Positions 16,570 to 35,147 of a stretch of 45,603 nucleotides of DNA are shown here, piece after piece (position 1 is the first letter of the stretch; every line of letters begins with the position of its first letter). The DNA lies in IMG/VR virus record IMGVR_UViG_3300035701_004184, positions 1 through 45,603 of that record, one strand, 5' to 3'. Source of the stretch: a virus. The notes below the pieces were generated by a model that was not told where the DNA came from, did no database searches, and saw only the letters and a program-made list of their open reading frames with translations. Made by a program: the position numbers and the translations under genes.

Positions 16570-19500
16570 CTAGATATACTTACCAATATAGTTTAAGTCT
16601 GGGGACTCAAGTTTAATTCTCCCTCCAGTTTCTTGCTGAAGGTACATCCCATCTTCCATTAATAGACATTCGAGATACTTCGGGCCATAAACATTATTTA
16701 CATCTGAATACTTACTCCCGTAGGCAACATTATCCTCCAAGACAATATGTCCACCAGTTTCCAATAAAAGATACATCCCATTCTGCATGAGTAAAGATGG
16801 TTGGTATTCGGGAGCAAAAACATTTCCGGTGGTCGTATATTTGTTTCCAAAGGCAATCGCATCTTCTAGGGGTATGCGCCCTCCAGTTTCCAAGAGAAGG
16901 TAGAATAGATCCTCCATCATTAAACAAGGAACATATTTAGGCCCATATATCTCAGGCGAGGGCGAAGGAGAGGGTGAGGGACTCAGCGAGGCGCTCGGAG
17001 AAAGTGAAGCACTTCCTGAGGCTGAGGCGCTTTTGCTAACCGAAGCCGACGGGGACAAACTCGCTGATGGGGAAAGAGACGCGGATGCGCTTGCCGAGGG
17101 ACTCAATGAGAAAGACCCTGAAGCCGATGGGCTGAGAGACCAACTCCCACTGGCTGACGGACTAAGAGAGAATGATCCGGAGGTAGAGGGTGAGAGGGAG
17201 AACGATCCAGAGGCACTTGGGGATAAACTGTAACTGGCCGACGCCGAGGGACTTAAACTATACGACCCACTCGCAGACGGGGAAAGACTCTCTGAACCTG
17301 AAGCACTTGGAGACAAACTTACTGACCCCGAGGCGCTGGGACTCAAAGACCCAGACGCCGAAGCCGAGGGAGAAAGGCTGGCACTAGGACTTAAACTGAA
17401 ACTGCCACTTGCCGAGGGAGACAAAGAGGCGCTGGCACTGGCCGAGGGGGACAGACTGGCCGAAGGAGACAGGCTCTCGCTTCCACTCGCTGAGGGTGAA
17501 AGAGAAGCCGAACCGCTTTCTGAAGGCGATAAACTTGCGCTGGGACTTAATGAAGCGCTTTCGGATGCGGAAGGACTTAAAGAGAAAGACCCGGATGCCG
17601 AAGGTGAAAGGCTGGCCGAGGGTGACAATGAAAAACTCCCTGAGGCCGATGGACTCAGACTGGCACTTCCAGAGGTGCTTGGACTAAGACTAGCGGAGGG
17701 CGAGAGTGAGAACGAACCCGACGCAGATGGAGACAGACTTGCTGAACCACTAGTGCTCGGTGAAAGAGATTCTGACGGACTTAAACTGAACGACCCGCTA
17801 GCACTAGGTGAGAGGGAAAACGAGCCCGAAGCACTGGGACTTAATGAGTATGACCCACTAGCACTAGGAGAGAGTGAAAATGATCCTGACGCACTTGGAC
17901 TTAAAGACTTTGACGCACTGGTGGAGGGGGAGAGGCTGGCTGAAGGTGACAACGAGAAACTACCACTAGCAGATGGGGAGAGAGAAAAACTTCCGGACGC
18001 ACTTGGAGAAAGGCTAGCCGAGGGACTTAGGCTAAATGATCCACTAGCGGAGGGTGAAAGTGATTTACTTGCCGAGGCGCTGGGACTCAAGGAAGTGGAT
18101 GGGCTAAGTGAAAAAGACCCCGAGGCAGATGGACTGAGACTAAACGACCCACTAGCACTAGGTGAAAGCGAGAACGATCCAGAGGCACTTGGGGATAACG
18201 ACGCTGAAGGGGATAAACTAAAGCTACCCGAGGCGCTAGGACTAAGAGAGAACGACCCACTGGCTGAGGGAGAGAAACTTCCCGACTGGCTGGCGCTTGG
18301 CGAAAGTGAGAACGACCCTGACGCACTCGGACTTAAACTAGCACTAGGACTCAATGAAAATGAGCCGGATGCGCTGGGACTCAAAGAGAAAGACCCACTA
18401 GCCGAAGGTGAAGGTGAGGCCGACGGGCTTAAACTAAACGATCCAGAGGCACTCGGACTTAACGAGAACGATCCTGAAGCGGAAGGAGATAGTGAAGCAG
18501 ACGGACTAAGACTGAAACTCCCACTCGCGCTAGGCGACAAAGAGAAGCTACCAGACGCCGAGGGTGAGAGACTGAGGCTTCCACTTGCGCTTGGACTCAG
18601 AGACTTCGACCCCGAAGCTGACGGGCTCAATGAAGCCGAAGGAGAAAGAGAGAAACTACCAGATGCTGAGGGCGAGAGGCTGAAAGAGCCCGACGCTGAA
18701 GGGGATAAACTAGCCGAGGGGCTTAGGCTGAAACTTCCTGATGCCGATGGAGATAAAGAGAAACTTCCCGACGCGGACGGACTAAGGCTGGCTGAGGGAG
18801 AGAGGGAAAAGCTGCCACTGGCTGATGGACTTAAACTGTATGATCCAGAAACACTTGGGGAAAGAGAGTATGACCCCGAAGCCGAGGGGCTTAACGAGAA
18901 TGACCCACTAGCGCTTGGTGAAAGTGAACCTGAGGGAGAAAGACTATAACTTCCAGAGGCACTAGGACTAAGTGAAAACGACCCAGAAACCGAAGGAGAT
19001 AAAGAGAAACTTCCTGACGCTGACGGCGAAAGTGAAAAACTTCCACTGGCGCTAGGAGATAAAGAGGCTGACGGCGAAAGTGAAAAACTTCCACTAGCGC
19101 TAGGAGATAAAGAGGCTGACGGCGAAAGTGAAAAACTTCCACTAGCGGACGGTGAGAGACTAAAACTTCCACTTGCACTTGGGGATAAAGAGAAACTTCC
19201 TGATGCCGAGGGCGAAAGAGAAAATGACCCGCTGGCACTGGGAGATAAAGAAGCAGAGGGAGAAAGTGAGAAACTTCCACTAGCTGAAGGGCTTAAACTG
19301 AAGCTGCCACTAGCTGAGGGACTCAGAGAACCCGACGGACTCAAACTGAAGCTACCACTTGCACTTGGCGAGAGGGAGAATGATCCAGAGGCACTTGGCG
19401 ACTTCGACCCTGACGGAGAAATACTAGAGAAGTTAAATAAATAATAAACCTCATTTGCCGTTAGGGCGGTGCCATTTATCAACCAAACATCATCCAATGA

Positions 19501-21906
19501 GCCAGTAAAGAATAAACCGTTGTCGCCAGTGTTGTTGGCACATCCAATCCGAACAAAATTAGTGGCTTGATACCCAGGAGCCCCACTCCAAGGCCAAGAG
19601 TTATCAAAAACACCGTCAATGTAGATTAAGATATTAACCCCATCCCAGATGCCAGCAATAAAGTGCCAGTTGCCATCAGTAACTGTCGCGTTGCTTGCCT
19701 GAAACTCATAATCTATTCCCTCAACAACACCCGTATTACAATAAATCCCAAAACAGACCTTATTTGAAGAATTGAGGTAAAGTCTCCACCCAGCCACCTT
19801 GCTCGATAACTGGCAGTAACTTTGAAATAAGAACTGGCTAGCACCCGTGGTTGAGGTTTTAAGCCACAGTCCTACAGTAAAACTTCCCGTAGGCTGAAAG
19901 TCGGCATGATCTGTTATTGAGTAGGCATCGTTGCCATCGAGAACAACCCCTCCACCAAATCTCCCAACCCCTTCTGCTGGGTCACTTATATCTGTTAAGG
20001 TATGTGCATCTTTAGAGTCGGTTGTTAAGGCACCAGTCGAGAATCGGTAGTATGCCACCGTGGTCGCACCACCGAACTCGGTGGTGTCGAAAAACTCCGG
20101 AGCTAACCATCCAGCACTAGGACTAGGACTAGGTGAACCCGAGGCGCTAGGACTTAATGAAGCGCTACCACTCGCCGATCCACTCGCCGACGGAGACAGT
20201 GAAGCAGAGGGAGACTGGGAAGCAGAATAAAGACCGTAAATATCAGCAATATCGTTTGACCCAAGACACGTTCCGTTCAAGAGAAAGACGTCATCTATCG
20301 ATCCTGTAAAGAATAGGGCATCAGTGCCAGTGTTGTTGGCACATCCAATACGGACATAGTTCGTTGCCTGATAAACTGGGGCATTGGCCCAGGCAGTCGG
20401 GCCAACGACTAACACCCCATCGACATAAAGACATAAACTCGCCCCATCCCAAGTACCAGCAATAAAGTGCCACACACCATCAGCCAGACTCACCGCACCA
20501 GTTATAAGTTTGTAGTCGGTATCAATTATGGTTCCCGTGTTCTTGTAACTGCCGAAGTTAATTTTATTGGCAGTATTCAAATAAAACCGGATTCCTGCCA
20601 TCTTACTACTACCCTGGGCGTAACTCTCGAAGATATATTGGTTGACCCCAGTAGTCGAAGTCTTAATCCACATTCCTACGGTGAAATTACCGGTAGGTTG
20701 AAAGTCGGCATGGTTAGTTGCCGAGTAAGCATCATTCCCATCCAACGCCACCGCACCATTAAACTCACCCGCAGCGTCTTCGGCAGGATCGCTTATGTCT
20801 GTCAAGGTATGCGCACCCGCACTCGTGTCTGTGGTTAATGCACCCGCCGAAAATCTGTAATATGCAGCGGGAGGATAAGTACCGATTAGTTCGTTGAACT
20901 CGCGCGCAGTCGGGGGATCCCCCGAACTTCCGCTGGCAGATTCACTAACTGATTCCGAAAAAGAACCACTGGCTGAAGTGCTAGCCGACACTGAGGTACT
21001 TTCTGAGGCCGATTGGGATAAACTAAAACTTCCCGAAGCGCTAGGGCTAAGACTGAAACTCCCACTCGCGCTAGGCGAGAGGCTAAAACTCCCCGACGCA
21101 CTAGGACTCAGCGAAGCTGACGGCGAGAGAGAAAAACTTCCGCTGGCACTCAGAGATTTCGAGGCTGAGGGAGAAAGAGAAGCCGAGTATGGTGGATAAT
21201 CACTTGTATAAGTAAGAAGGATTTGTCCATCAGCACCCAAACTATAACCAGCAGTAGTGGCATCACCCCCACCTCCACCACCACCGGGGATACCACCATT
21301 ACCACCAAGTTGACCATCAGTATCTCCACTTCCTGCACCGCCGCCACCACCTAAGTCATTTGCCGCACCATTTTGTCCAGCAGAAGTTCCACCAGTACCA
21401 CCCGAACCATGATCCCCACCACCGCCATCACCATGCGCACTAGCACCTGCGGCGACACCATCCAAACCAGTTCCATCTTTACCAGCTGCTCCTCCTCCTC
21501 CACCACCCACATCTGATGTCGTATGAGCATTTTCACCTGCACCACCACTTGTACCAGCAGGAGTACAACTCGCACCGACACCACCAGCGGCACCAGTGGC
21601 GGTACTTGTACCCGTACCACCTATTGCTACTACCGTAGTTCCGCCAAAAGTAGAACTTGGGGCTACACCCGCAGTATCTCTTGCACCACCCGCACCAACA
21701 ACAATGGCATAGTTATTCCCAGGAGTAACAGCAACAGAAGCATTAACAGTATAGGCTCCACCGCCACCTCCTCCTCCACCACTTGCACTAGCATATCCTC
21801 CTCCACCACCAGCACCCCACGCCTCTACCTTGATTGAATTTACATCAGGTGGACACTGCCAACTATATGTTCTTGCTATGTTATATTTTTTTGTTTGGGT
21901 TGCCAT
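16570..21906 (-). CDS. Giant Ser-rich repeat tail protein with Gly-rich and two LamG-like domains
   Basis: 1778 residues. The N-terminus (about 1-235) is a Gly-rich fibre domain ([23 protein letters not shown]). Then come short Ser repeats and two LamG/concanavalin-like domains (about 338-560 and 599-825, each with [19 protein letters not shown] and WHFIAG.WDG). A run of roughly 80 decapeptide-like units ([10 protein letters not shown] and variants) covers about 827-1650. The C-terminal 125 residues hold three copies of a motif ending [11 protein letters not shown] or similar. The repeat tract is mucin-like: Ser, Pro, Ala, Gly and an aromatic in each unit. LamG domains bind glycans or proteins. 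It is probably a long virion fibre, and the Ser tract is a plausible glycosylation target of the neighbouring island. SD AGAGGT abuts the ATG. Confidence 0.8.
16956..19424 (-). repeat. Ser-Pro-Ala-Gly coding repeat tract
   Basis: About 80 degenerate 30-bp units encoding [10 protein letters not shown]-like decapeptides. Most units differ at synonymous positions, so the DNA repeats are much less alike than the protein repeats. The same unit occurs in the head-fibre-like gene at 34010-34920. Confidence 0.85.
19021..19140. repeat. 48-bp near-perfect tandem repeat, 2.5 copies
   Basis: The unit starts at 19021, 19069 and 19117, with one visible mismatch (19048 vs 19096). It encodes 16 residues within the Ser-rich tract. 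Nearly identical copies stand out from the diverged units around them and mark a recent slippage or unequal-exchange event. Confidence 0.8.
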
Positions 21907-21929
21907 ACCTCTTTGCCGCCATTGGTTAA

Positions 21930-21959: not shown

Positions 21960-21965
21960 CCGAAA

Positions 21966-23591
21966 TTAGTACAGTTTCTTCACCAAATCTTCCGTTTTAC
22001 CCCACCCCGGAATCTCCATATCCGATTCCAACCACCCCGTACAAGTAGACTTATCTCTGAAGTCATCCTGGCTCCACTTATCGGGAGTCAGGTTAGTTCC
22101 GTGTCTAACGTCCACAATCGGGAACTCCGACTTCCACCATTCAGACCTACCATCTCTCGTGCCTGGCTCAAAACTCACCGTCTTATACGAAAATCCGTTT
22201 TTTTCAATAAACTCCATGATTTTTTTGTATTCCACTAACAGTAAGTCTCTATGGGCACACAGCCCCGAGAGCTGATCGGCGTCAAAGTGTACCGCATGAC
22301 CATCCGACCTTAACTTCCAGAAATTCCTATTGTAATAAAACTTATCCTTTGTCGGTGGTATAAAGTCAAAATGGGATGGGTGATACATAACATCATGCTC
22401 ACAAAAGAATATCCACTCCGCCTCACTATTTTCTATCGCTGCGTAAATTTGCTTAGCCATAGCGAAGTATCCCCGTTTAAGATGGGGAAAGTGAATGTTC
22501 TTTTTACCGAAAGCAATCTTCTTGAGAGAGGAACTGACAATGGGGATATTCTTTTCTTGACTTATCTTCGCTAAGTTCTCTTTCACTGCTTCAGCGAGTT
22601 TCGGTTCGAGTTGATTATCGGTATAAAAGATCATCCCCTTCGCTGCGCCTTTCTCACTTTCTTTAAGTTTTACTAAATCCGCATCCGTCCAACCTTTTAC
22701 TGGCCAAAATTTCTCTAACAACCAAGAAAGAGGGTGGATGGTTTTCGGCCACTTACTGTTGAAAAACAACTCGCGCGCATGCGCCTTGGCTTTAGATACC
22801 TGACTCCCCGATAAATGATATGGAAATCCAAAGTCGCCACCTTTCGTGCGAAAGAGGTGCGCATACCAAGTCTCGTGATTCACGAGTACGCGCCCACCCG
22901 AGAGCCAGGTCTTACAAGCAACCTCTATTCCTTGACTTCCCCATGACCCAAACTCCTCGCTACACAAATCCAACTCGAAATACTTCTCACGGGTACACAT
23001 AAAGCACGACCCCTGTAAGGACATCGTTTCTGAGATAGGCCCACTCCACCCTGGCCTTCTAGTCCAGTCTCCGAAATATTGAAAATGAGGTTCGGCATCG
23101 AAGCAAAACGACACAGCCTTGGGATTTCGCTTAGCAATCCATACAACTTCCTTTACAGTAGGCTTCTGACACTCTGTACACGGCCCAGAAAGCCCCTGAT
23201 AACGTCGGTGGCCATCTGGACACACCCAATCGAAGACGTGCAGGTTTCTCATTAAGGGCGCCATCGTTACATTGTCCCCAGTCACTTTGAACGCTTCGAT
23301 CATCTTCACATCGAAACCTTTGTCAAAAGCACAGTGGGCGTCTATCTTCATTACATATTTAGATCGAGAAAGTCTAGCTGCTTCATTTGTGGCCGCGCGC
23401 TGTCCCAATGCTTGACTATGCCTAATTATCACCAGTCGAGAGTCTTCGGGAAGCGGGGAAATAGGAATCGTATAACCATCAAGGGCAACAATAATCTCGG
23501 TGTCCCCCTCAATATTAGATAGGATGTCTTCAATCGTCCGACCCAACCACTCTTCATTACAAGATGGGATAAGAATAGAAAGTATTGACAT
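21966..23591 (-). CDS. Bifunctional glycosyltransferase (GT2/GT27-like plus second GT-like domain)
   Basis: 541 residues, apparently a fusion. Residues 1 to about 310 form a GT-A glycosyltransferase: SILIPSCNEE start, DAHCAFDKGFD (DxH, D84/H86), LQGSCFMCTREKYFEL, and GSWGSQGIEVACKTWLSGG with a following AHLFR. These blocks resemble polypeptide GalNAc-transferases (GT27) and related GT2 enzymes. From about 320 on (GMIFYTDN...) the protein is clearly homologous to the 246-aa gene at 25930, sharing FFCE.D..YHPSHFDF, a conserved Leu-Ser-Gly Cys block and an EPG tract. An internal CPDG...C..C cluster (about 125-145) may bind zinc. Donor sugar and acceptor are unknown. It starts inside the divergent promoter region shared with the RHH gene. 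Confidence 0.8.
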   Translation of the reverse strand: MSILSILIPSCNEEWLGRTIEDILSNIEGDTEIIVALDGYTIPISPLPEDSRLVIIRHSQALGQRAATNEAARLSRSKYVMKIDAHCAFDKGFDVKMIEAFKVTGDNVTMAPLMRNLHVFDWVCPDGHRRYQGLSGPCTECQKPTVKEVVWIAKRNPKAVSFCFDAEPHFQYFGDWTRRPGWSGPISETMSLQGSCFMCTREKYFELDLCSEEFGSWGSQGIEVACKTWLSGGRVLVNHETWYAHLFRTKGGDFGFPYHLSGSQVSKAKAHARELFFNSKWPKTIHPLSWLLEKFWPVKGWTDADLVKLKESEKGAAKGMIFYTDNQLEPKLAEAVKENLAKISQEKNIPIVSSSLKKIAFGKKNIHFPHLKRGYFAMAKQIYAAIENSEAEWIFFCEHDVMYHPSHFDFIPPTKDKFYYNRNFWKLRSDGHAVHFDADQLSGLCAHRDLLLVEYKKIMEFIEKNGFSYKTVSFEPGTRDGRSEWWKSEFPIVDVRHGTNLTPDKWSQDDFRDKSTCTGWLESDMEIPGWGKTEDLVKKLY

Positions 23592-23613
23592 ATACTTACA
23601 ATGTATGTATAAT
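23585..23613 (+). promoter_or_regulatory. Consensus sigma70 promoter of the RHH/Tad2-like cassette
   Basis: TTGACA at 23585-23590, exactly 17 bp, then TATAAT at 23608-23613, a perfect match to consensus. The RHH ATG lies at 23624, so the leader would be only a few bases. The -10 overlaps the palindrome at 23607-23618. Confidence 0.85.
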
Positions 23614-23618
23614 TATAC
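23607..23618. promoter_or_regulatory. Palindromic operator candidate (RHH gene)
   Basis: A perfect 12-bp palindrome, GTATAATTATAC, containing the -10 and placed 5 nt before the RHH start codon. The same palindrome lies at 41967-41978, 4 nt before the TerS start. A bound regulator would block the promoter; RHH proteins commonly bind short palindromes. Confidence 0.55.
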
Positions 23619-23623
23619 CATAT

Positions 23624-23791
23624 ATGATTCGTTGTAACTTCTATTTAACGATCGAGCAGAAGAAACGTCTCGAAAAACTTTCTCAGGCATCGGTTGCAGA
23701 ACACATCCGCCGAGCCATTGACGAATACTTGAAACGCCACGCACCCACCTACACGACTTCTCCTTCAAAGAAAGGAGGTAGACATGGTTAA
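23624..23791 (+). CDS. Ribbon-helix-helix (Arc/MetJ/CopG-type) regulator
   Basis: 55 residues. RCNFYLTIEQKKRLEKLSQ forms a beta strand plus helix 1, and ASVAEHIRRAIDEYLKR forms helix 2, the classic RHH arrangement. A basic Lys/Gly tail follows. RHH proteins dimerise and use paired strands to bind short palindromic operators; one overlaps its own promoter. No SD precedes the ATG, which is almost at the predicted transcription start (leaderless or nearly so). It overlaps the next gene by 8 nt. This and the next gene are the only plus-strand genes in the genome, inserted within the sugar island. Autoregulation is inferred. Confidence 0.8.
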   Translation: MIRCNFYLTIEQKKRLEKLSQASVAEHIRRAIDEYLKRHAPTYTTSPSKKGGRHG

Positions 23792-24050
23792 ACTTCAACA
23801 GGTTCCTCCAGCACAAAAGTTTGAAAAGGCCCATATTGTCAAAGGTCCCATCCCGATGATGACCTTTCCCGAAGCGATAAAACAAGTTATCGAAGGCAAA
23901 GTGATTACCAAACTTGAATGGGGAGATGAAAACATCTATGGAGCGCTTTTGGCCGGTAGACTGAAAATTCACAAAGACGACAACAAGTTCTACGATTGGA
24001 TTCTTAACGACGGCGACTTGACGGGAACAGATTTTATAGTAATCTCTTGA
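23784..24050 (+). CDS. Tad2-like (DUF2829-type) candidate anti-Thoeris protein
   Basis: 88 residues from the ATG at 23784, which has a full SD (AGGAGGT, 5 nt away). The core from about residue 25 reads MTFPEAIKQVIEGKVITKLE, then W, and ends with YDWILNDGDLTGTDFIVI. This follows the DUF2829/Tad2 pattern: F.EA...L..GK...R..W, then a Trp and a final TDW/F.V strand. Tad2 proteins bind and sequester the gcADPR signal of Thoeris defence. Here the match is by eye and the usual central region is shorter, so family membership is moderate. Location in a two-gene plus-strand cassette behind an RHH regulator fits an early anti-defence module. Confidence 0.5.
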   Translation: MVKLQQVPPAQKFEKAHIVKGPIPMMTFPEAIKQVIEGKVITKLEWGDENIYGALLAGRLKIHKDDNKFYDWILNDGDLTGTDFIVIS

Positions 24051-24097
24051 GTAGAAGTTGCAACGGGAGAAAGCGCGACAAAACAGTTGATTACTCT

Positions 24098-24910
24098 TTA
24101 ACATAGTGCCTTATAAAGTTCGGCTATCTTTGAGATATGGTATTCTTCGGATTTTGCAATGCACTTCTGGGCGTACTCGTCATATAGCCACGGTGCAGAC
24201 AGGAGTTCGTCTAATCTGGCAAGGAACTCCTCAAAGTTATTGACTGGGATATAACAATCCCCCATCTCATCAAAAGCCTTTTCATGGAAGGCGATAGTCG
24301 GGATTCCGAAAGAGGAGGCATTGACTAATTTCAAGGGATTCCTCATCTTCATCTTATAAGGTCTCCAGACAATCTGAACGTCTACCTTCATAAAAGCATC
24401 TACAACATCTTGTCGTTTGGCAAACTTAGAATAAGCGTAAAGTGTCATTCCCCGCTTTGCTAACTCATCGTTTAAGGCTGGAGGAAAGAATTGAAGATCG
24501 AAGGTGCATCCAATAGCCCCGAGAGTTTTAATTCCCGTTCTCGTCCTTCTAATTCGCTCATAATTGCAGTTGTGCTGGGGGATAAAGACAACTCTATTTG
24601 GTAGATCTCTTTTTAGGGAGTCGTAGTCGAACTTCGAGAGAGCGATCACCGGCACCTCAGGATGTTTCAAAAGTAAAGAGGTTAGATCCCATGAGTCAAC
24701 AATGTCTAAATACGGTTTCCCTTCAAACTTAAAATCCTCAAAGTTCTTAACGTGGGGCTTCACATAAATACAGACATCATTCTCATATCCCTCAGTCGGG
24801 TTTAACTTCGCCCCAAGATACTCGGCGATCTGATTGCCTCGGATTAAGGAAGAAACTCGCATTAGATGGCGTTTCCCTTTGAACATTCTTTTCGCGAAAA
24901 TAGAGATCAT
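24098..24910 (-). CDS. GT-B type glycosyltransferase (GT4-like)
   Basis: 270 residues from the ATG at 24910, which makes the ATGA overlap typical of this operon with the upstream methyltransferase stop (a longer start at 24919 is possible). The C-terminal half shows the GT-B donor-binding region: LGAIGCTFDLQFFPPALND, MRNPLKLVNASSFGIPTIA, and a FEEFLARLDELLSAPWLYDE helix. The N-terminal half is short for GT4 and has no obvious membrane segment. It would transfer a sugar from an NDP-sugar. It is the last gene of the sugar island's main leftward run before the plus-strand cassette. Confidence 0.7.
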   Translation of the reverse strand: MISIFAKRMFKGKRHLMRVSSLIRGNQIAEYLGAKLNPTEGYENDVCIYVKPHVKNFEDFKFEGKPYLDIVDSWDLTSLLLKHPEVPVIALSKFDYDSLKRDLPNRVVFIPQHNCNYERIRRTRTGIKTLGAIGCTFDLQFFPPALNDELAKRGMTLYAYSKFAKRQDVVDAFMKVDVQIVWRPYKMKMRNPLKLVNASSFGIPTIAFHEKAFDEMGDCYIPVNNFEEFLARLDELLSAPWLYDEYAQKCIAKSEEYHISKIAELYKALC

Positions 24911-26670: not shown

Positions 26671-26718
26671 GTTTTAACCCAACCGTGGATTCCCCAAGTA
26701 TCTCCACTTTTCCGCATA

Positions 26719-27363
26719 TTATTTTTTCACCCAGAACCATGAACGGTATTTGTCTCGTATGAGACCATTTCCACAGACTGACAATCCCGGAACAAAGTAG
26801 GGGTGCATCCGATAACATCGCGCATAGACCTCTAGGACTCGTTTAACGTGGTTAAACTTCCTATAAGAGAAATAGGCATAATCATGACCTGCCAGAATCC
26901 CATCCACTTTAACTTTCTTCTTCCAAGTATCTAGGTCGTTGGTTATATTCACGAAGTCATGGTTGGCGTCTATGTAAACAAAGTCGAAATAGTTATCGGG
27001 GAAGTCCTTGGCCGCCTCAAGCGAGGTTTTCCTGACAATCGTACAGTTATACGGAGCGAGTCGCTCTTTGGTCTTTTCGTAACACCCGTCAAAGTACGCC
27101 TGTTGCTCATTCACGCCCGAGAGTCCTGAGGGATAAACGTAAGAGGCCCAAGGATCGATACTATACAAATGTAACTTAGAGTTGGCCTTGCATAGAACCT
27201 CGGAGTAATCTCCCCTATCCACTCCGATCTCCGCACCCGTATTCAGGTTTAACTCACCAAACAACTTCGCCAGATCGTCACGTCCCATATTGGGGATCTC
27301 AATGAAGAACTGCCTCCTAACAGTTATATTATACTTTTTTAAGACGTATTCGTAATTCGTCAC
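26719..27363 (-). CDS. SAM-dependent methyltransferase, paralog 2
   Basis: 214 residues. Same blocks as the other copies: GAEIGVDRGDYSEVL, LYSIDPW, RKTSLEAAKDFP, FDFVYIDANHDFVN and GILAGHDYAYF, ending SWFWVKK. The N-terminal extension (MTNYEYVLKKYNI) is shared with the next two paralogs but not with the first. It overlaps the next upstream gene by 4 nt (ATGA). Glycan O-methylation is the likely but unproven role. Confidence 0.75.
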   Translation of the reverse strand: MTNYEYVLKKYNITVRRQFFIEIPNMGRDDLAKLFGELNLNTGAEIGVDRGDYSEVLCKANSKLHLYSIDPWASYVYPSGLSGVNEQQAYFDGCYEKTKERLAPYNCTIVRKTSLEAAKDFPDNYFDFVYIDANHDFVNITNDLDTWKKKVKVDGILAGHDYAYFSYRKFNHVKRVLEVYARCYRMHPYFVPGLSVCGNGLIRDKYRSWFWVKK

Positions 27364-28016
27364 GTTTTTACCCAGAACCAGTTTCCATAAAGGTCACGCC
27401 TGGGTTTCTCGTGCCTTCGCGGTAGGACAAAGAAAGGAATCATCTTGTAAGAAGTCGCATAAGCCATTAGTGCCTCTCTAACGTGGATCATCTTGTAAGA
27501 CTTGAATCTCATGTAATCATGGCCAGCCACAATTCCTCCAACTCGCACCTTATCTTTCCAGTAATGGAGATCAAGGGTAAAGTTTACGAAGTCGTGTCCC
27601 GCATCTAGGTAAACAAAGTCCAGCGATCCATCTTTAAAATCTTTCACCGCTTCCATTGAAACCTTGCGGATAATCGTGCAGTTGTAGGGAGATAGTTTCG
27701 CAGTCGCTGTTTTGTATGCTTCGTCGTAATATGGCTGACTCTCCGAACCTGGAAGGGGATGTGACTGAGCTAGAAATCCTATAGGGTAAGACTCGATCTT
27801 CCAAGAGTCTATACTGTAGAGATGGAGTTTCGGGTTAGCATCACATAGAATCTTGGAATAGTCCCCATGCAAGACTCCAACCTCGGCCCCCACCGTGAAT
27901 CCCAACTCGGCAAATAAAGCCGCTAGATCGGGACTTCCCATGTTCGGAATCTCCACCATATATTTATGCCCGATTTTAAGGTTGTACTTTTTAACGATGT
28001 AGTCAAAAGTATTCAT
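27360..28016 (-). CDS. SAM-dependent methyltransferase, paralog 3
   Basis: 218 residues from the ATG at 28016, chosen because it makes an ATGA overlap with the upstream paralog's stop. Motifs are GAEVGVLHGDYSKIL, LYSIDSW, SMEAVKDFKDGSLDFVYLDA and GGIVAGHDYMRF, ending NWFWVKT. A 15-residue insert rich in Pro/Ser (SHPLPGSESQPYYD) follows the second motif. It is close in sequence to paralog 2. Confidence 0.75.
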   Translation of the reverse strand: MNTFDYIVKKYNLKIGHKYMVEIPNMGSPDLAALFAELGFTVGAEVGVLHGDYSKILCDANPKLHLYSIDSWKIESYPIGFLAQSHPLPGSESQPYYDEAYKTATAKLSPYNCTIIRKVSMEAVKDFKDGSLDFVYLDAGHDFVNFTLDLHYWKDKVRVGGIVAGHDYMRFKSYKMIHVREALMAYATSYKMIPFFVLPRRHEKPRRDLYGNWFWVKT

Positions 28017-28627
28017 TCTTTCACAAAAAACCAACTCGTTTGGTAGTTCCGATTAGGTAGAAATAACATCTTGATACCATGATTCTTGACGTAAGTATCT
28101 ATGGCCCGTCTTGAACCTAAGGTCATAAACCAATATTTGTAATGGCCGTAGTCGTGTCCACTGACTATTCCACCAGGCTTAACAATCTTCGCCCAGGCTT
28201 CTATATCCTCCAACACATGACTATAGTCGTGGTTAGCGTCTATATAGACGAAATCTAAAGTTTCGGGAGCGAAGTGTTTAACCGCCTCCATACTGGTCTC
28301 CCTGAGGATCTTGCACTTATAAGGAGCAAGGCGTTTACCCGTCTCTTGACAACACTCATCCAGAAACTTTTGGTTGTTGGCATAGAACTCAGGGACTTCG
28401 CTCTCATAGATTATCCAAGGATCGATGCAATATAATTTGAGACCAGGATTCTGTAGACATAAGGTTTCCGAGAACTCCCCCTTGTAGACCCCAACCTCTG
28501 CTCCGACCTTAAAGTTTAACTCCCTAAACATCCCCGCCATGTCATACCTTTTGAATACAAGTCTAACCGGCGACTTTGTATCAGGGCCGATGTCAAACTT
28601 CTTATTAACAAACTCCAGTGTGTTCAT
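28013..28627 (-). CDS. SAM-dependent methyltransferase, paralog 4
   Basis: 204 residues from the ATG at 28627 (ATGA overlap with the next gene). Motifs are GAEVGVYKGEFSETL, LYCIDPWI, RETSMEAVKHF, LDFVYIDANHDYSHVLEDI and GGIVSGHDYGHY, ending TSWFFVKE. Three such genes in direct succession, each with 4-nt overlap, imply tandem duplication followed by divergence, perhaps for methylation of different sugar positions. Confidence 0.75.
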   Translation of the reverse strand: MNTLEFVNKKFDIGPDTKSPVRLVFKRYDMAGMFRELNFKVGAEVGVYKGEFSETLCLQNPGLKLYCIDPWIIYESEVPEFYANNQKFLDECCQETGKRLAPYKCKILRETSMEAVKHFAPETLDFVYIDANHDYSHVLEDIEAWAKIVKPGGIVSGHDYGHYKYWFMTLGSRRAIDTYVKNHGIKMLFLPNRNYQTSWFFVKE

Positions 28628-29121
28628 TTCCAAAAGTCCTCCAAACTAACTAAATTACTCAAGACGGCAGCCTTCCTATCATCCTTATTCCACACCGTCT
28701 TATACTTGAATAAAGGATAGATTTCCGAATAATGGTAGATCTTATCTTTCTCGGGGTTGGCATCATGGATAATGATGTATTTGGCCAACTCCGTTAACCG
28801 CCTGATTTCTATGGCGCGACTGGAGTCGGGAGTCTGATCGATTAGTACCACATCCCAGGGTTTGTCTATCTTCGCCTTGGCATAATCATCAATAATGATA
28901 ATCTCGTGGTTAGGACACGAATAACCGTATTTAATGAAAAAGTTGGCCCAAGATGGATAGTTCTCATAAGATACCAACTTCCGATCTGAGAGAAGGCATT
29001 GATAGTGAAGGTATGGAGTGCTAAAAATTCCCATCCCCAATTCCAACACGTCTCCCGTAGTTTTCTCCATCGCTTTTATCAGACAGGGCAGGTGGGTTCC
29101 GTAGTGGCCCGAGACATTCAT
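28624..29121 (-). CDS. Methyltransferase-like protein
   Basis: 165 residues from the ATG at 29121, again chosen for the ATGA overlap. GDVLELGMGIFSTPYLHY is a class I motif I-like segment, and WDVVLIDQTPDSSRAIEI and KYIIIHDANPE give the following strands with acidic residues. It is not closely related to the four paralogs. Substrate unknown; context suggests sugar or glycan methylation. Confidence 0.6.
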   Translation of the reverse strand: MNVSGHYGTHLPCLIKAMEKTTGDVLELGMGIFSTPYLHYQCLLSDRKLVSYENYPSWANFFIKYGYSCPNHEIIIIDDYAKAKIDKPWDVVLIDQTPDSSRAIEIRRLTELAKYIIIHDANPEKDKIYHYSEIYPLFKYKTVWNKDDRKAAVLSNLVSLEDFWK

Positions 29122-29891
29122 TTTTGTCGCCATTTCTCATTCCTTTCTAAAATCTTCTTTGTTATTTCTGGGTCGTAACTAACACTCTCCGCCCAAGATG
29201 TCCAGCCGTAGACATCTTTGGGCAGACACTTTGAATCAAAACCCTTCTTTTCTCCGTGATCCGCCGTCCACCAAAGGTTGAATCTAAAATCATCACCATA
29301 AACCACGTCTCTTATATTGTAATAGTCTATCCCCGCCTTTTTACAGGCATCTATCAACTCCTGAACCTCGGCAATCTTCCAGGCAATCGCCCTATTTTCA
29401 GACAGTTTAATCACCTCAGCCTCAAGTGCAGTTACTTGTCTGACTGATACGTTGGCATTGTAGACATTTCTGAAGTAAAGTTCGAGCAATTTATGCCTAT
29501 CTTCTGAAGCCCCCCCAATGACCAGGAAGGGTCGCGTCTTTGGATCAAGCATTGGATGCGCCGGGGACTCTCCAAGGTATTCTGGCTGTACCACAATGCG
29601 TCTAGCATACTTCTTTGAGAGTAGATCGGTAGTTCCGGGGTTTACGGTGGAACGAATGACCAAAAGTGGACATTCGCACCAAGCAACCACCCCCTCAACT
29701 ACCGAGGTGTCGAGTTTCCCCTTATCAATACAAGGTGTCGGCACACAAATGAAGGCGGTCTCTCTTTTATTCACCTCTTCCTTTTCCCCAAGACCCAAGG
29801 CTGGATCATAAATATAGGCTTCGGGAAATAATTGTTGCATGGATTTTCCCACCCAACCGTAACCAATTATTGCCACTTTAGGTTTTGCCAC
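29118..29891 (-). CDS. UDP-glucose/GDP-mannose dehydrogenase-like protein (short)
   Basis: 257 residues, against about 390-450 for the family. Present: dinucleotide-binding GYGWVG (10-15), FICVPTP (48-54), RSTVNPGTT (80-88), PEYLGESPA (103-111), EAEVIKLSEN and the catalytic-Cys block SKCLPKD (C222). The C-terminal UDP-binding domain is missing. Family enzymes oxidise NDP-sugar C6 alcohols to uronic acids. Retaining the catalytic Cys suggests an active enzyme on a smaller or different substrate. Confidence 0.7.
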   Translation of the reverse strand: MAKPKVAIIGYGWVGKSMQQLFPEAYIYDPALGLGEKEEVNKRETAFICVPTPCIDKGKLDTSVVEGVVAWCECPLLVIRSTVNPGTTDLLSKKYARRIVVQPEYLGESPAHPMLDPKTRPFLVIGGASEDRHKLLELYFRNVYNANVSVRQVTALEAEVIKLSENRAIAWKIAEVQELIDACKKAGIDYYNIRDVVYGDDFRFNLWWTADHGEKKGFDSKCLPKDVYGWTSWAESVSYDPEITKKILERNEKWRQK

Positions 29892-30745
29892 CGTTTTCTC
29901 CTTTCGTGATATACCTTGAAATAAGGGTCATTCTGCTCGCCCTTCCAGTAACCTTCATTAAGTTGGATAAACCGGCTTTCTTTGACTAGGCTGGAAAATA
30001 CATTAGAGGCCCGTTCATGGTAGACCCCAGAATAACCCGTAACAGCCGCCCAACCTTTCTCATCTATAACTCTTTTGGCCTCAATACTACACCAAATATC
30101 ATCGCACCTCTCCAATTCTCCCCGTATCTGCGGACACATAAAGATGTAGGGGATCATCTTTCGTTTGAAGGCGGTATTCATGTAGGACAGTGGCGCGAGG
30201 ACCCCTTTAGGAATCGCCATTTTATAGAAGTTCATTGGATGCGATCCTATAACTAATTGAGTGGGAGCATCAAAGTCGGGCGTTACCTCCCATACGCCGT
30301 GTGATAATACTACTTCCGCCTCACTCCGCACCCCGTAGGGAAAACCCCTTGTATAAGCATCCCCTATCGGCATCCAGCTAATCGGAACCCTCATGTCGAG
30401 TGCGTTTAGGTGATCTTGGATGGAGTCCCCTATAGGGATAAGGTCGTCATCTAGTGAAACGATAGTCTCTATCTCTGGCAAGTTCAAACCCACATAGGCT
30501 ATCCCTAAGCTCCTCACTCCCGCGTAACGATTACAGACTAAGTCACTATTCTTTCCAAGAATGTCTTTTATGTTTATTTTCTCCTTGTTGTTAATCTGTA
30601 GAGTCGTTTTGTTGGGATTTTCCTCATCCCACACCGTTAGAACGGTTACGTCGTGTTTCTCAAATAAGTCTTTCCACCTGGGGAGGAAAACATCATTATA
30701 TAAATCTTTTCGATAAGACGGTAAAACGACAGCGATCTTAGGCAT
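29867..30745 (-). CDS. Reversibly glycosylated polypeptide / UDP-arabinopyranose mutase-like protein (GT75-like)
   Basis: 292 residues from the ATG at 30745 (a GTG at 30751 is possible). The match to plant RGP/UAM proteins is distinctive: SLDDDLIP (DDD at 99-101), RGFPYGVRSE, SHGVWEVTPDFDAPTQLV, IPKGVLAPLSYMNTAFKRKM, a CDDIW block and YHERASN.F. R140 lines up with the Arg that is glycosylated in plant proteins, by my eye alignment. Those proteins interconvert UDP-Ara pyranose and furanose. A related bacterial or phage activity could make a furanose donor for the island. Reaction not proven. Confidence 0.7.
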   Translation of the reverse strand: MPKIAVVLPSYRKDLYNDVFLPRWKDLFEKHDVTVLTVWDEENPNKTTLQINNKEKINIKDILGKNSDLVCNRYAGVRSLGIAYVGLNLPEIETIVSLDDDLIPIGDSIQDHLNALDMRVPISWMPIGDAYTRGFPYGVRSEAEVVLSHGVWEVTPDFDAPTQLVIGSHPMNFYKMAIPKGVLAPLSYMNTAFKRKMIPYIFMCPQIRGELERCDDIWCSIEAKRVIDEKGWAAVTGYSGVYHERASNVFSSLVKESRFIQLNEGYWKGEQNDPYFKVYHERRKRWQNLKWQ

Positions 30746-31616
30746 TTTCACTTTGCCACCTTCCTAACCTTTCCTTCCAATCATCCGGCCAGGTTGGCAT
30801 CGGATTAAACTTGTCAACAAACCAATAAAAATCGTGTTTTCTCTCGGCCCACTTGTCGCCTAGCCAATATCTAGCCGCTAGATCGTAAGATTTATTCTCT
30901 TGCGCCTGATCCATATGATAACCCCGTTTGTTCCCTTGCTGGTGTAAATGCGCATAAAAAGTCTTTTTGTTAACCATTACCTTTCCTCCACCCAACCAGT
31001 TCTTGAGTGCCAACCAAATCGGTTCCTGCGCGTGACCGTATGGATCGATATTCGGAAATCCCCCTAGTTCAAAGTAATGGTCTTTGGAGATGAACCATCC
31101 TGATCCATGAATCTGGGGAGTTTCATCAATCAAGATGTCTAGTTTCTCCGCCGTCCACTCGGGCCAATGACCACCCGCCTTGAAACGCAAACCCCTCGGG
31201 TCTGTGAAGGGACAGCAAATATAAAAATAATCGTAGAACTCCTCCTGACCATTTTTCATTTGTATTTGCCAGTCAGGAGTTATGATCTTAAAGCGAGGCA
31301 TTACTATCCAGTCATCCTGCATGTCTGCTTGTAAAATCTCGTCAAAACCCTTGCCAAAACTACAATGAGCATCGGACTTGTAAATATACTTACCTGTCGC
31401 CATCGCACAAAGAGCATTGAGATTGGTCTTTATCCCTACAACATCGGGAAATCTTATCGACTTAACCGGAAAGTCGAAGTCTTGGTACGGCGGGCCGTCA
31501 AAACCAACCAAGACCTCGAACTCTCCAGTCGCGTTCTCGTAGATGCTTTTAATTGTCCGGCTAAGGTTCTCGTAACTTTCAGCCCTGCTAGGAATAATTA
31601 TGCTTACTTTGGCCAT
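30738..31616 (-). CDS. GT2 glycosyltransferase with GT27-like DxH and lectin-proximal blocks
   Basis: 292 residues. It begins SIIIPSRAESYENLSRTIKS. The DxH motif is in KSDAHCSFGKGFDE (D82, H84). Then come IHGSGWFISKDHYFELGGF and HAQEPIWLALKNWLGGGK with a following YAHLHQ. These correspond in order to the DxH, GGLF.I...YF..LG and WGGEN.E...W.CGG blocks of polypeptide GalNAc-transferases. The C-terminal YWFVDKFNPMPTWPDDW is shared with the other two GT2 proteins of the island. Donor and acceptor are not determined. Confidence 0.75.
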   Translation of the reverse strand: MAKVSIIIPSRAESYENLSRTIKSIYENATGEFEVLVGFDGPPYQDFDFPVKSIRFPDVVGIKTNLNALCAMATGKYIYKSDAHCSFGKGFDEILQADMQDDWIVMPRFKIITPDWQIQMKNGQEEFYDYFYICCPFTDPRGLRFKAGGHWPEWTAEKLDILIDETPQIHGSGWFISKDHYFELGGFPNIDPYGHAQEPIWLALKNWLGGGKVMVNKKTFYAHLHQQGNKRGYHMDQAQENKSYDLAARYWLGDKWAERKHDFYWFVDKFNPMPTWPDDWKERLGRWQSENA

Positions 31617-32155
31617 GATTTATGCCTCACAATGATTAAAATATTATCCCGTCTGCGTACGTGCGCGAGTTTTGGTACTTCCACGTTATACTCCGATAAC
31701 TGCGGTACTATTGTCTGCCAATATCTAGCGTCCTCGATAATATAGATCGTATGCCTTTGCAAAAGAGGCATGAGAGTCTTACAGGAGAAAATCTGGTCGG
31801 CCATGACATGAGAGCCATCGTCTATCACTAAATCTAGATCGGGGCCAGTATGTACAATTACATTCTCCAGATTGCTCTCTATTCTTTGGTCACAAGTAAA
31901 GACCCTTATTCTTTGTTGGTCATTCATTAACTTAACCCTTTCGGGATCGATCTCAGCCCCATATATCATGGCGTGAGGAAAGAAATCTCTCCACATAAAG
32001 AGACTTGCCCCCTCCGCCGTTCCTATCTCTAAGACTTTTTTAATTATCGTTCTCCTAGGGTTTAAGAGGTCGTAATAATAAGGCGTATAGGAATGTTTTA
32101 TCTGCGGACACTTATCCGAGTTATACTTGAGTGCTAAATCACAAAGTTCGGTCAT
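31604..32155 (-). CDS. Class I SAM methyltransferase, sugar O-methyltransferase-like
   Basis: 183 residues. KYNSDKCPQIKHSYTPYYYD, VLEIGTAEGASLFMWRDFFP, IYGAEIDPERVK and LDLVIDDGSHVMADQ form a motif set I associate with CmcI/TylF-type and other sugar or antibiotic methyltransferases. It is distinct from the four-paralog set. The ATG overlaps the GHMP kinase stop (ATGA). A role in methylating a sugar nucleotide or a finished glycan is likely from context. Confidence 0.7.
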   Translation of the reverse strand: MTELCDLALKYNSDKCPQIKHSYTPYYYDLLNPRRTIIKKVLEIGTAEGASLFMWRDFFPHAMIYGAEIDPERVKLMNDQQRIRVFTCDQRIESNLENVIVHTGPDLDLVIDDGSHVMADQIFSCKTLMPLLQRHTIYIIEDARYWQTIVPQLSEYNVEVPKLAHVRRRDNILIIVRHKSWPK

Positions 32156-33093
32156 ATATTGAAAATCGCTCGGCTACCAGTCGGAGAAATCTTAAATATT
32201 AACTCTCGACAACCTAGGTGTTCTCTGATGGCGTTCCTTCTCTCGGAGTAGGACATTGTAAGCAAGAACCCACCACCGCCCGCACCAGTGATCTTACCGC
32301 CCCACGCACCGTAGTCTATCGCACGAGAGTACAAACCATCAATTAACTGGTTGGTAACTGCTCCGTTTAACTTCTTCTTCAGTTTCCAATACTCATCTAC
32401 CAATCCTCCAAGTGAGAGAAGATCGCCTTTTTCAAGAAGCTTCTTACCTTCAAGAGCCATTTCCTTGTTTCTATCTAGTATTTTCTTGTCTAATTTCATT
32501 TTAGACAGTATGTCTATCGACTTTCTCGTTATACCCGTGTAGAAGAGCATCGTAGAGGCTTCCAGCCTCGTAAAATCCGTTATAATCGGACAAACAGAGA
32601 CCTCTTTTCCAAATTGGATCAGGTTTAACCCTCCAAAGGCGGCAATATATTGGTCTTGAACCCCGATTGGTTTCTTCAAAATGTCAATTTCTAGGTTACA
32701 AGCCTCTTCCGCAAGCTGTTTTGCGCCTATCTGTTCCCCTTTATACAAATGGAGGGCATTAAGCACTCCTACCGCTACACCGCTACTTGATCCGAGGCCG
32801 CTTCCCTCCCCCGGAACGTCTGATAAGAAGGTTATTTCTACTCCTTTATCAACTCCAACCATTCGCATTGCCTCTCTTACTATCTCATGCTTTATTTCAC
32901 TGACACTGTTTACCTTTTCTTTGATCGACCAGTTAATCCTGATCTCATCGTCAAAGCGTTTAGTAATGATGCAATAGACATATTTATCTATGGCCATCGT
33001 CAAAACTGCCCCTCCGTACTTTTTATAATACTTTGGGAAGTCGGTATTGCCACCTAACAATGAAACCCTAAGCGGCGTTTGGGTTATTATCAT
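32152..33093 (-). CDS. GHMP sugar kinase, heptose-7-phosphate kinase-like
   Basis: 313 residues. TPLRVSLLGGNTDFPKYY and GGAVLTMAIDKYVY form the N-terminal block. PGEGSGLGSSSGVAVGVLNA (about 94-113) is the ATP-binding motif 2, and KITGAGGGGFLL is motif 3. The overall pattern is closest to D-glycero-D-manno-heptose-7-phosphate kinases (HddA type) and fucokinase-like enzymes. It should phosphorylate a sugar at the anomeric position as a step to an NDP-sugar. No guanylyl- or adenylyl-transferase partner is found here, so the host would have to supply it. Confidence 0.8.
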   Translation of the reverse strand: MIITQTPLRVSLLGGNTDFPKYYKKYGGAVLTMAIDKYVYCIITKRFDDEIRINWSIKEKVNSVSEIKHEIVREAMRMVGVDKGVEITFLSDVPGEGSGLGSSSGVAVGVLNALHLYKGEQIGAKQLAEEACNLEIDILKKPIGVQDQYIAAFGGLNLIQFGKEVSVCPIITDFTRLEASTMLFYTGITRKSIDILSKMKLDKKILDRNKEMALEGKKLLEKGDLLSLGGLVDEYWKLKKKLNGAVTNQLIDGLYSRAIDYGAWGGKITGAGGGGFLLTMSYSERRNAIREHLGCRELIFKISPTGSRAIFNI

Positions 33094-33961
33094 AAGATGC
33101 CCATACCTCCTTCCAGTTATCCTGCCATGTAGGAACCGGCCAGAACTTCTCTATGAGCCACTCCATCTTGTGTACCATTCCTGGTTCTTCATTGTTCATC
33201 CAGTGTTTAGCAGACCAGTTCGACCCGACAACGTGTTGTCTATCATCAAACTTGTAGAATCGTCCGTATTTACTGCCTTTGTGGAGATGACAGTAAAAGG
33301 TTTTCTTGTTTGTTTTCAACTCTCCTCCACCTAACCATGTCTTATTCCCTATCTCCTGGGCTTCCTGAGCAAACTGACCGTATCCTTCTTCGTGCATCCC
33401 GCCCAAAACCTTCAGAAAATAGTCCCTAGGCACAAACCAACACGACCCCTGGAGACTCATTGTGTCATCAATGTCATATTTTGGGTCTAGTCTCTCTTTA
33501 CCTCTGTCCCACCACTCCACTCCGTGCATCCCGTCATCATGGGCCTTACCCTTATAAGGAAAGCAGAGATAGTGGTAGTCGCGTCTGGCTTTGCCGTTGT
33601 TATCAATCTTCCAATTCTCAGCATCTAGTGAATACCGGGAAGGGACTACCACCCAATTATCGGCGCAATGTTCGGTGAGTTCCTTGTCGAATCCAGGAGC
33701 GACCATACAATGATCGTCCAGTTTCATTAAATACTTGCCTTTGGCCACATTTGCACAAGCATTGATCCCCCACCTCATACCTCTGGAAGTCCCTGGGTGG
33801 ATATAGATGACCCTGGGATCGTCCACTAAGACTTCAGGCCAGTTCTCATCCACATTCACAACAATCTCAATATCGCCAACCGCTTTCTCTAACAGGTCAC
33901 TGATTGTCTTGGTAAGAAAAGGAGAGTTGCGATTGGGGATAATAACACTCAATATACTCAC
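33068..33961 (-). CDS. GT2 glycosyltransferase, third GT27-like paralog
   Basis: 297 residues from a GTG at 33961. A TTG farther upstream would lie inside the promoter, and GTG is 9 nt beyond a TACTAT -10. Motifs are SVIIPNRNSPFLTKTISDLL, LMKLDDHCMVAPGFDKE (D82/D83/H84), LQGSCWFVPRDYF and GQFAQEAQEIGNKTWLGGG, then YCHLHK, with the tail WLIEKFWPVPTWQDNW. D82 and H84 fall at the same residue numbers as in the 292-aa paralog. It is the first gene of the sugar island downstream of the promoter at 33971. Confidence 0.75.
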   Translation of the reverse strand: MSILSVIIPNRNSPFLTKTISDLLEKAVGDIEIVVNVDENWPEVLVDDPRVIYIHPGTSRGMRWGINACANVAKGKYLMKLDDHCMVAPGFDKELTEHCADNWVVVPSRYSLDAENWKIDNNGKARRDYHYLCFPYKGKAHDDGMHGVEWWDRGKERLDPKYDIDDTMSLQGSCWFVPRDYFLKVLGGMHEEGYGQFAQEAQEIGNKTWLGGGELKTNKKTFYCHLHKGSKYGRFYKFDDRQHVVGSNWSAKHWMNNEEPGMVHKMEWLIEKFWPVPTWQDNWKEVWASYDNNPNAA

Positions 33962-33970
33962 GATATACTC

Positions 33971-34000
33971 ATAGTACAAAGCCAAACTACTTTAGGTCAA
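33971..34000 (-). promoter_or_regulatory. TAGTT-type promoter of the sugar island
   Basis: -35 TTGACC, TAGTT at spacer positions 6-10 of 18, -10 TACTAT; 9 nt then lead to the GTG start. This gives the sugar genes the same promoter class as the structural genes. Confidence 0.65.
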
Positions 34001-34004
34001 GAGG

Positions 34005-35147
34005 TTAGAATGGAAGAGACGGAGATGGAGATGGAGACTCGCTGGCTGACGGGCTGAGCGAGGCCGAAGGAGAAAGAGATCCTGACGGAGAGGCTGATCC
34101 TGAAGGCGAGGCTGACTTAGATCCCGAGGCTGAGCCAGAGGCTGACTCACTGGCACTTGGGGACTTAGACGCTGAGGGAGAAAGCGAGGCGCTTCCTGAC
34201 TCGGAAGGCGACAAACTATAGCTTCCTGAAGCAGATGGGGACAAACTTTTACTCCCTGAGGCGGAGGGAGACAGACTCAAACTACCAGATTCTGAAGGCG
34301 AGAGACTGTAACTGCCCGAGGCTGACGGTGACTTACTGAAACTACCCGAAGCGGAAGGACTAAGCGATTCTGACAAAGATAAACTAAAGCTACCCGAAGC
34401 AGAGGGAGACAAAGAGAAACTGCCAGATTTAGATGGGCTGAGGGAAAATGACCCAGATGCGGACGGGGAAAGAGATCCTGACGGCGAAAGTGAACCCGAA
34501 GGACTGAGAGAGCCGGACGGACTGAGAGAGAAACTCCCTGAGGCTGACGGGCTCAAACTACCTGACGGGGAGAGAGAGGCTGAAAACGAGAGACTAAAAC
34601 TTCCAGAAGCGGAAGGGGATAGGCTGTAACTACCGGACTTGGAAGGACTGAGAGAGTACGACCCCGAGGCGGAGGGACTAAGAGATCCCGAAGGAGACAA
34701 ACTATAACTCCCCGAGGCTGATGGTGAGAGACTAACACTCCCTGATTCCGAAGGAGATAGGCTGTAACTCCCTGATGCGGATGGGGACAAACTGAAGCTA
34801 CCCGATGCCGAGGGGCTAAGACTAAAACTCCCGGACGCTGAAGGGGACTTACTATAGCTTCCTGATGCTGAAGGAGAAAGGCTGAAGCTACCTGAAGCGG
34901 AAGGGCTGATTGACGGGGAACTAACCGCTTCTCCTACAAACATCCAGACAGCCACACTTGAAGTCCCGACGTTTTGGTAGACGTTCCGGCCAGTTCTAGT
35001 TGTATCACGGAAGAAACAACCCTGCTTAAAGCCAGGGTAACTCGTGGGAAGGGTCGGGCCGTCAGCATCCAATGCATACCCTGCCCCATCTTCCCGATAG
35101 ATCATTGTCCCGCTTGGTAATGCTGTTGATTTGGCGAAATCGGTCAT
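34005..35147 (-). CDS. Ser-rich repeat head-fibre-like protein
   Basis: 380 residues. The first about 75 (TALPSGTMIYREDGAGYALD, CFFRDTTRTGRNVYQNVGT, VAVWMFVG) look like a small capsid-binding head domain of the decoration/head-fibre kind. From about 77 to the end the chain is [10 protein letters not shown]-type repeats, the same unit as in the giant tail protein, ending SPSPSLPF. It directly follows the MCP terminator and precedes the sugar island, so it is probably a capsid surface fibre and a possible glycosylation target. No promoter of its own is seen; expression would need read-through of the terminator at 35149. That would fit a minor capsid component. Confidence 0.7.
   Translation of the reverse strand: MTDFAKSTALPSGTMIYREDGAGYALDADGPTLPTSYPGFKQGCFFRDTTRTGRNVYQNVGTSSVAVWMFVGEAVSSPSISPSASGSFSLSPSASGSYSKSPSASGSFSLSPSASGSFSLSPSASGSYSLSPSESGSVSLSPSASGSYSLSPSGSLSPSASGSYSLSPSKSGSYSLSPSASGSFSLSFSASLSPSGSLSPSASGSFSLSPSGSLSPSGSLSPSGSLSPSASGSFSLSPSKSGSFSLSPSASGSFSLSLSESLSPSASGSFSKSPSASGSYSLSPSESGSLSLSPSASGSKSLSPSASGSYSLSPSESGSASLSPSASKSPSASESASGSASGSKSASPSGSASPSGSLSPSASLSPSASESPSPSPSLPF
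34010..34920 (-). repeat. Ser-Pro-Ala-Gly coding repeat tract, second copy
   Basis: About 30 units of the [10 protein letters not shown] class, with Tyr/Lys/Val variants at the aromatic position. Codon usage varies between units as in the tract at 16956-19424. Confidence 0.8.

Follow-up and report, generated by a model that had tools for sequence, protein, structure and literature searches.

We analyzed a 45,603-nucleotide (nt) stretch of viral DNA (IMG/VR record IMGVR_UViG_3300035701_004184, positions 1–45,603), called the window below, and focused on two genes encoding serine-rich comb proteins, SR1 and SR2, and on the sugar genes between them. All relevant open reading frames (ORFs) lie on the minus strand. 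The first-pass annotation had described two flanking genes with a common decapeptide, and its coordinates and lengths for both were right. The island that separates SR1 from SR2 (33985 down to 21966) forms a single compact operon, with about 16 sugar genes whose products are soluble: the first glycosyltransferase (GT) gene starts 19 nt past SR2, nearly all later genes overlap by 4–26 nt, and 59 nt separate the last GT gene from SR1. The comb proteins and the main GTs are as follows.

16570–21906, minus strand: SR1 comb protein, 1778 amino acids (aa); Gly-rich domain, two LamG/ConA-like domains, 458 alternating Ser sites, C-terminal LLLETGG repeats
34005–35147, minus strand: SR2 comb protein, 380 aa; N-terminal domain of ~75 aa and 145 alternating Ser sites; 89 nt past the major head protein gene
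33068–33985, minus strand: GT305, GT27-like transferase (DDHC ... YCHL), the first gene past SR2
30738–31616, minus strand: GT292, GT27-like transferase (DAHC ... YAHL)
21966–23591, minus strand: GT541, two domains in one protein: GT27-like at the N terminus (DAHC ... YAHLFR) and another of GT-A type at residues ~316–541 (invariant ExD)
25930–26670, minus strand: separate gene paralogous to the C-terminal GT-A domain of GT541

Every alternate position in the repeat tracts was a Ser (458 of 458 in SR1, 145 of 145 in SR2), and the residues in between were P, A, L, G and F. An identical decapeptide was found in 44 exact copies in SR1 and 7 in SR2. The 44 copies in SR1 were encoded by 43 distinct DNA versions, and mean pairwise nucleotide identity among decapeptide copies was 0.591, versus 0.594 expected for random synonymous codons; short-read assembly loses DNA-identical repeats, which may contribute to this divergence. 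For the comb genes of 52 relatives, the observed value was 0.661 versus 0.632 expected. Because the decapeptide DNA is as diverged as random synonymous codons, we concluded that selection at the protein level keeps the peptide, and that the repeats are not a young DNA duplication. Comb positions across 109 comb proteins held 13,339 Ser versus 137 Thr, a count that is somewhat biased because tracts were picked by Ser content. The spacer residue varied among these proteins (P 27%, A 21%, then L, V and E). What stays constant among the combs is that every second residue offers a Ser hydroxyl. In the region that follows the capsid gene, 57 of the 59 relatives encode the SR2-type N-terminal domain, and SR1 is a probable tail fiber or tail tip. 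Inspection of the SR1 and SR2 sequences revealed no signal peptide-like or hydrophobic N-terminus and no anchor, with SR1 ending in its LLLETGG repeats. Matches of SR1 and SR2 to MSCRAMM/Sdr, GldM and clostridial receptor-binding-domain models (Pfam/NCBIfam) were rejected as effects of composition or of the general ConA-like fold; most were at or below cut-offs.

All three GTs matched PF00535. Each contained, in the order given by the first-pass annotation, a DxH motif (DAHC in GT541 and GT292, DDHC in GT305), a GS.F/W...YF block, and a W..GG block followed by YAHL, YAHL and YCHL, respectively. Of the lengths it had listed (541, 292 and 297 aa), the first two stand, whereas the third protein is 305 aa and reaches 297 aa only with a later start. 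It had further likened this layout to that of polypeptide N-acetylgalactosamine (GalNAc) transferases of family GT27 and proposed a structural comparison, which we ran for GT541. In a phmmer search of the PDB with the single GT541 sequence, the 14 top matches were all GalNAc-transferases (lowest E = 1.5e-4), and a profile of 33 family members matched GalNAc-T1 across the whole catalytic domain (E = 5.2e-18). The AlphaFold2 model of GT541 (mean predicted local distance difference test, pLDDT, 91.5) had GalNAc-transferases as all of its 16 best PDB fold matches; chondroitin polymerase K4CP came next. Residues D84, H86 and H245 (the DxH and the later His) were invariant in 33 sequences, and in the alignment with GalNAc-T1 they fall on its metal ligands (DAHC, GHVFR). 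Judged by profiles, motifs and predicted structure, the three GTs are true relatives of polypeptide GalNAc-transferases. The GT27 assignment held for fold and metal site but failed for strict membership, because Pfam scans detected no ricin-type lectin domain in the window GTs or in the 33 family members. The first Glu of the acidic WGGEN(L)E motif is retained in GT305 and GT292 and is a Gln in GT541. GT305 is the probable initiator transferase. Residues 316–541 of GT541 form a second GT-A domain that is paralogous to the product of 25930–26670, whose model (pLDDT 88.9) gave only general GT-A fold matches. A Phage_tail_S match of GT292 was rejected (0.0016, under cut-off). Among 50,697 phage records no relative was found, apart from a weak partial match to GT305. 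A GT27 candidate was noted earlier in a Bacillus genome (PMC3178493); thus, GT27-like genes in prokaryotes have precedent. The strict Ser alternation, the second GT-A domain of GT541 and the host (see below) go beyond the first-pass annotation.

When loci were collected by their GTs, 25 of 30 had a comb ORF; when they were collected by terminase, 6 of 80 did. Within the terminase set, a comb occurred in 5 of 5 GT-positive loci versus 1 of 75 GT-negative loci (Fisher p = 2.5e-7), and the sole GT-negative comb locus (L044) stops directly past the comb. The reverse test detected the GT family in 10 of 21 comb-bearing viral records versus 0 of 47 controls of the same DNA scan (p = 1.2e-6); because the loci are related, both p-values overstate independence. 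Comb records without a GT were mostly short contigs or simple-sequence repeats. This case-control design was used in place of a plain TCN x10 DNA scan for combs, which was unspecific and returned mostly poly-Ser and hexamer repeats. Among 80 loci retrieved with the head protein, every locus with at least 1.5 kb downstream (59 of 59) had a comb 40–430 nt past the head gene, and every locus with at least 4 kb downstream (34 of 34) had a GT. GT305 was the constant island member in these loci, and the remaining island varied. A second lineage has HK97-type portal, protease, head and tape-measure genes that are unrelated to those of the window, and its combs are Ser-Glu/Ser-Ala tracts, (SE/SA)n. 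At loci L022 and L023, the comb gene shares 8 nt with one gene that joins a GT27-like domain, a GT-A domain and a methyltransferase (L022:841–2949). Such a fusion argues that the three activities are serial on one substrate. The GT–comb linkage is near-obligate and, of all the new evidence, the strongest. The check for co-occurrence of repeat and GTs in other phages came out in favor of the earlier proposals: a dedicated linked GT system acting on Ser proteins is supported by the association tests and by gene fusion and overlap, and a place for the methyltransferases in the same pathway is supported by the GT–GT–methyltransferase fusion.

The remaining island genes, in order of transcription, are listed here.

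32152–33093, minus strand: GHMP sugar kinase, nearest to heptose-7-phosphate kinase HddA
31604–32155, minus strand: methyltransferase-like protein, Methyltransf_24 barely over cut-off
29867–30751, minus strand: RGP/UDP-arabinopyranose-mutase-like protein (PF03214)
29118–29891, minus strand: compact UDP-sugar dehydrogenase, 257 aa; catalytic Cys motif GFDSKCLPKD retained, C-terminal domain missing
28624–29133, minus strand: 169-aa protein without a Pfam match, recurring in relatives' islands
28013–28633, minus strand: methyltransferase (Methyltransf_24)
27360–28034, minus strand: methyltransferase (Methyltransf_24)
26719–27363, minus strand: methyltransferase (Methyltransf_24)
25436–25933, minus strand: compact SDR-like protein, 165 aa, weak RmlD match
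24907–25458, minus strand: methyltransferase (Methyltransf_24)
24098–24919, minus strand: 273-aa protein with weak resemblance to GT group 1, recurring in islands

Pfam, PDB and NCBIfam matches upheld the sugar kinase, nucleotide-sugar dehydrogenase, RGP-like and methyltransferase functions read earlier from the sequence, with four to five Methyltransf_24 proteins in the island. Short forms of the dehydrogenase are kept in relatives. The SDR-like protein is about half the usual size, and proteins of similar length with 51–63% identity occur in other phages and on Patescibacteria contigs. No island protein had a convincing membrane segment (the top score, 1.67, fell inside a methyltransferase core), and the operon contained no membrane GT, flippase or carrier enzyme. 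A 163-aa ORF at 23613–24104, for which a homologue search was empty, may be spurious, as possibly may an ORF on the opposite strand (23784–24050).

The order of transcription is small and large terminase, portal, methyltransferase, scaffold, major head protein, SR2, the island, SR1, and then a pectate-lyase-like protein (identified by reading), tail genes and lysis genes. PHROGs and isolate matches assigned these context genes:

40405–41631, minus strand: terminase large subunit
38492–40234, minus strand: portal/connector protein
35237–36358, minus strand: major head protein

The extra methyltransferase gene between portal and scaffold lies at 37331–37819. The two ends of the window (1–175 and 45429–45603) are 94.9% identical over a 175-nt overlap, which makes a nearly complete genome with terminal redundancy probable. 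Near one end, 24 tandem GGTCG[T/C/G] hexamers occupy 45057–45200 on the minus strand. One frame of this array reads (Gly-Arg)24 with synonymous changes only; since the usual start codon is absent, it is perhaps a DNA-level array. A similar hexamer array was seen at locus L176 (10257–10352).

The host is almost certainly a member of the Patescibacteria, which are ultra-small, uncultured bacteria. In a search of 84,980 species genomes with the single GT541 protein, 7 of 7 relatives were in metagenome-assembled genomes (MAGs) of Patescibacteria (Woesebacteria, Saccharibacteria, Microgenomates, Niyogibacteria, Levybacteria). Six of the seven adjoin a comb gene, and the seventh is on a 5-kb contig. 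Some of these modules are chromosomal, on contigs with rpoB, secA and uvrD, while L277 is a phage contig whose comb has a LamG domain in common with SR1. Two combs from Patescibacteria genomes align with viral combs outside the repeats. The GT family is rare, occurring in 6 of 380 Patescibacteria genomes. By eye, an AbiEi/AbiEii-like pair adjoins the chromosomal comb/GT modules of two Patescibacteria (L240, L278). A prophage on a 149-kb Patescibacteria contig (L412–L415; G376:C1) follows the gene order of the window (46% for portal, 32% for head) and keeps the LamG and tail genes. It contains neither the sugar island nor a Ser tract; thus, comb and island are absent together. We read a serine recombinase-like gene in this prophage (L415:5414–6925). 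Viral and chromosomal sequences were intermingled in the GT tree, with at least seven well-supported switches, a pattern that suggests that phages and Patescibacteria have exchanged these genes repeatedly. MAG binning errors could affect single cases but not the overall pattern.

Serine-rich repeat glycoproteins of Gram-positive bacteria have strictly alternating Ser tracts, including 10-residue repeats such as SLSNSVSMSE x91 (PMC6973325). These systems (GspB, SraP, PsrP and L. reuteri SRRP, with GtfA/GtfB and further GTs) have alternating Ser repeats and dedicated linked GTs in common with the phage system. Their first sugar comes from soluble cytosolic enzymes, a likeness that the phage genes suggest. 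They differ in their GtfA/GtfB initiating pair, whereas the phage GTs are PF00535/GT27-like with only the weak group-1 match at 24098–24919, and in their long signal peptide, accessory Sec system and LPXTG anchor, which the phage combs do not have. The phage genes, in contrast, lie in a structural operon with methyltransferases added. Because GtfA/B, accessory Sec and anchor are missing, the phage system is not a strict member of this class. With the GT27 GalNAc-transferases of mucin-type glycosylation in animals and protists, the phage GTs share the fold, the DxH and later His ligands, in GT305 and GT292 the W-G-x-E block, and probably Ser/Pro/Ala-rich acceptors. They differ in having no ricin lectin domain or membrane anchor, in Ser-only acceptors, and in versions fused to a second GT-A domain or a methyltransferase.

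The Ser-Asp repeats of staphylococcal Sdr/Clf proteins are glycosylated by SdgA/SdgB. They too combine an alternating Ser tract with dedicated GTs, but the GTs differ and the proteins are anchored to the cell wall; the SR1 repeat matches Sdr/Clf-type models via composition only. Chlorovirus PBCV-1 likewise encodes GTs for its virion proteins, and the paralogue of the GT541 C-domain matches, among other folds, its GT structure 2p6w (E ~1e-5), a general GT-A match. PBCV-1, however, is a eukaryotic virus with N-linked glycans on a jelly-roll capsid protein. Phage virion glycosylation involves phage-encoded GTs, and three are present here in one phage operon. According to PMC11256854, which cites Freeman et al. 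2023, GTs encoded by mycobacteriophages Che8 and Rita glycosylate head proteins. The target in that account is the major capsid protein, whereas here long repeat proteins beside the GTs look evolved as acceptors. Sugar and lectin genes of Patescibacteria phages have been interpreted as host-attachment genes (PMC12911398). We found no earlier work directly on phage mucin-like or serine-rich glycosylation in the searchable non-subscription literature, and the comb system appears undescribed there.

We consider it likely that the island is a dedicated protein O-glycosylation operon that modifies both comb proteins, which are then assembled into particles as glycan brushes. Late in infection, soluble phage enzymes in the Patescibacteria cytoplasm would use nucleotide sugars, with the kinase, dehydrogenase, SDR and RGP/mutase providing unusual ones. 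GT305, GT292 and the GT541 N-domain would put a sugar on comb Ser hydroxyls, metal-dependent via the D-x-H and later His; the second GT-A activity (from the GT541 C-domain and from the paralogue at 25930–26670) would extend the glycan, and methyltransferases would cap it. Modified SR2, encoded beside the head gene, would enter heads, and SR1, beside the tail genes, would enter tails, as stiff hydrophilic glycan brushes. We infer catalysis on Ser, sugar identity, glycan methylation, virion location and purpose, be it shielding or adhesion; tail-fiber-like domains, together with a place next to the tail genes and the major head protein gene, suggest the virion location. The 'self-glycosylating virion' of the first-pass annotation is misleading, because the enzymes are soluble and would do their work in the cytoplasm of the host, ahead of assembly. 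On balance, we also favor, with less assurance, a broader reading: a hitherto undescribed prokaryotic 'mucin-type' O-glycosylation in which GT27-like enzymes initiate on strictly alternating-Ser proteins, as a core trait of a widespread Patescibacteria phage lineage, exchanged with host chromosomes, with methylated glycan brushes coating the virions. Several points weigh against the reading as an O-glycosylation operon. Pro/Ala/Ser sequences can act as unmodified flexible polymers, GT27 enzymes usually prefer Thr, which is almost absent from the combs, GT541 has a Gln at the GT27 WGGE glutamate position, no UDP-GalNAc epimerase was seen, and the linkage tests compared related loci. Given Thr-poor acceptors and the GT541 Gln, the sugar is best not named GalNAc.

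The same modules on Patescibacteria chromosomes near rpoB, secA and uvrD, together with the LamG lectin domains of SR1, would also fit real glycosylation of a comb that is a secreted or surface adhesin of bacterial type, made from phage and chromosome alike, attaching the episymbiont to its own host and forming no part of the virion. We regard this as unlikely, since SR1 and SR2 have no signal peptide or anchor, the phage combs lie within the head–tail gene block immediately past the major head protein, and the two combs of Patescibacteria genomes align with viral ones beyond the repeats. Pro/Ala/Ser tracts can also be unmodified spacers, and the combs might be plain flexible spacers of tail or head fibers while the island modifies the host surface through a lipid- or polysaccharide-linked glycan, for superinfection exclusion or adhesion. 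The literature does read Patescibacteria phage sugar-nucleotide genes as O-antigen or attachment genes (PMC12911398). However, the operon has no membrane GT, flippase or carrier enzyme, the GTs are closer to protein-acting than to polysaccharide enzymes, GT and comb are paired in two lineages with unrelated head genes and on chromosomes, and comb and island are jointly absent in the related prophage; this explanation is, in our judgment, rather improbable.

Phages do encode DNA-modifying GTs, and the GTs could act on phage DNA or another non-protein target, with the neighboring combs a coincidence. The GT27-like domain and the GT–comb association tests speak against this, and reading the window ORFs revealed no recognizable modified-base synthesis gene; we give this possibility very little credence.

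If O-glycosylation of the combs is true, mucin-like machinery would exist in phages of bacteria that are not yet accessible by phage isolation. It would offer GT27-like enzymes that are simple and soluble and whose acceptor is defined as Ser only, have a bearing on the origin of mucin-type initiation, and provide a virion-based alternative where the sugar and lectin genes of Patescibacteria phages have been read as serving host attachment (PMC12911398). Our data suggest a testable mucin-like system for prokaryotes, in which a virus may coat its own particles with sugars.

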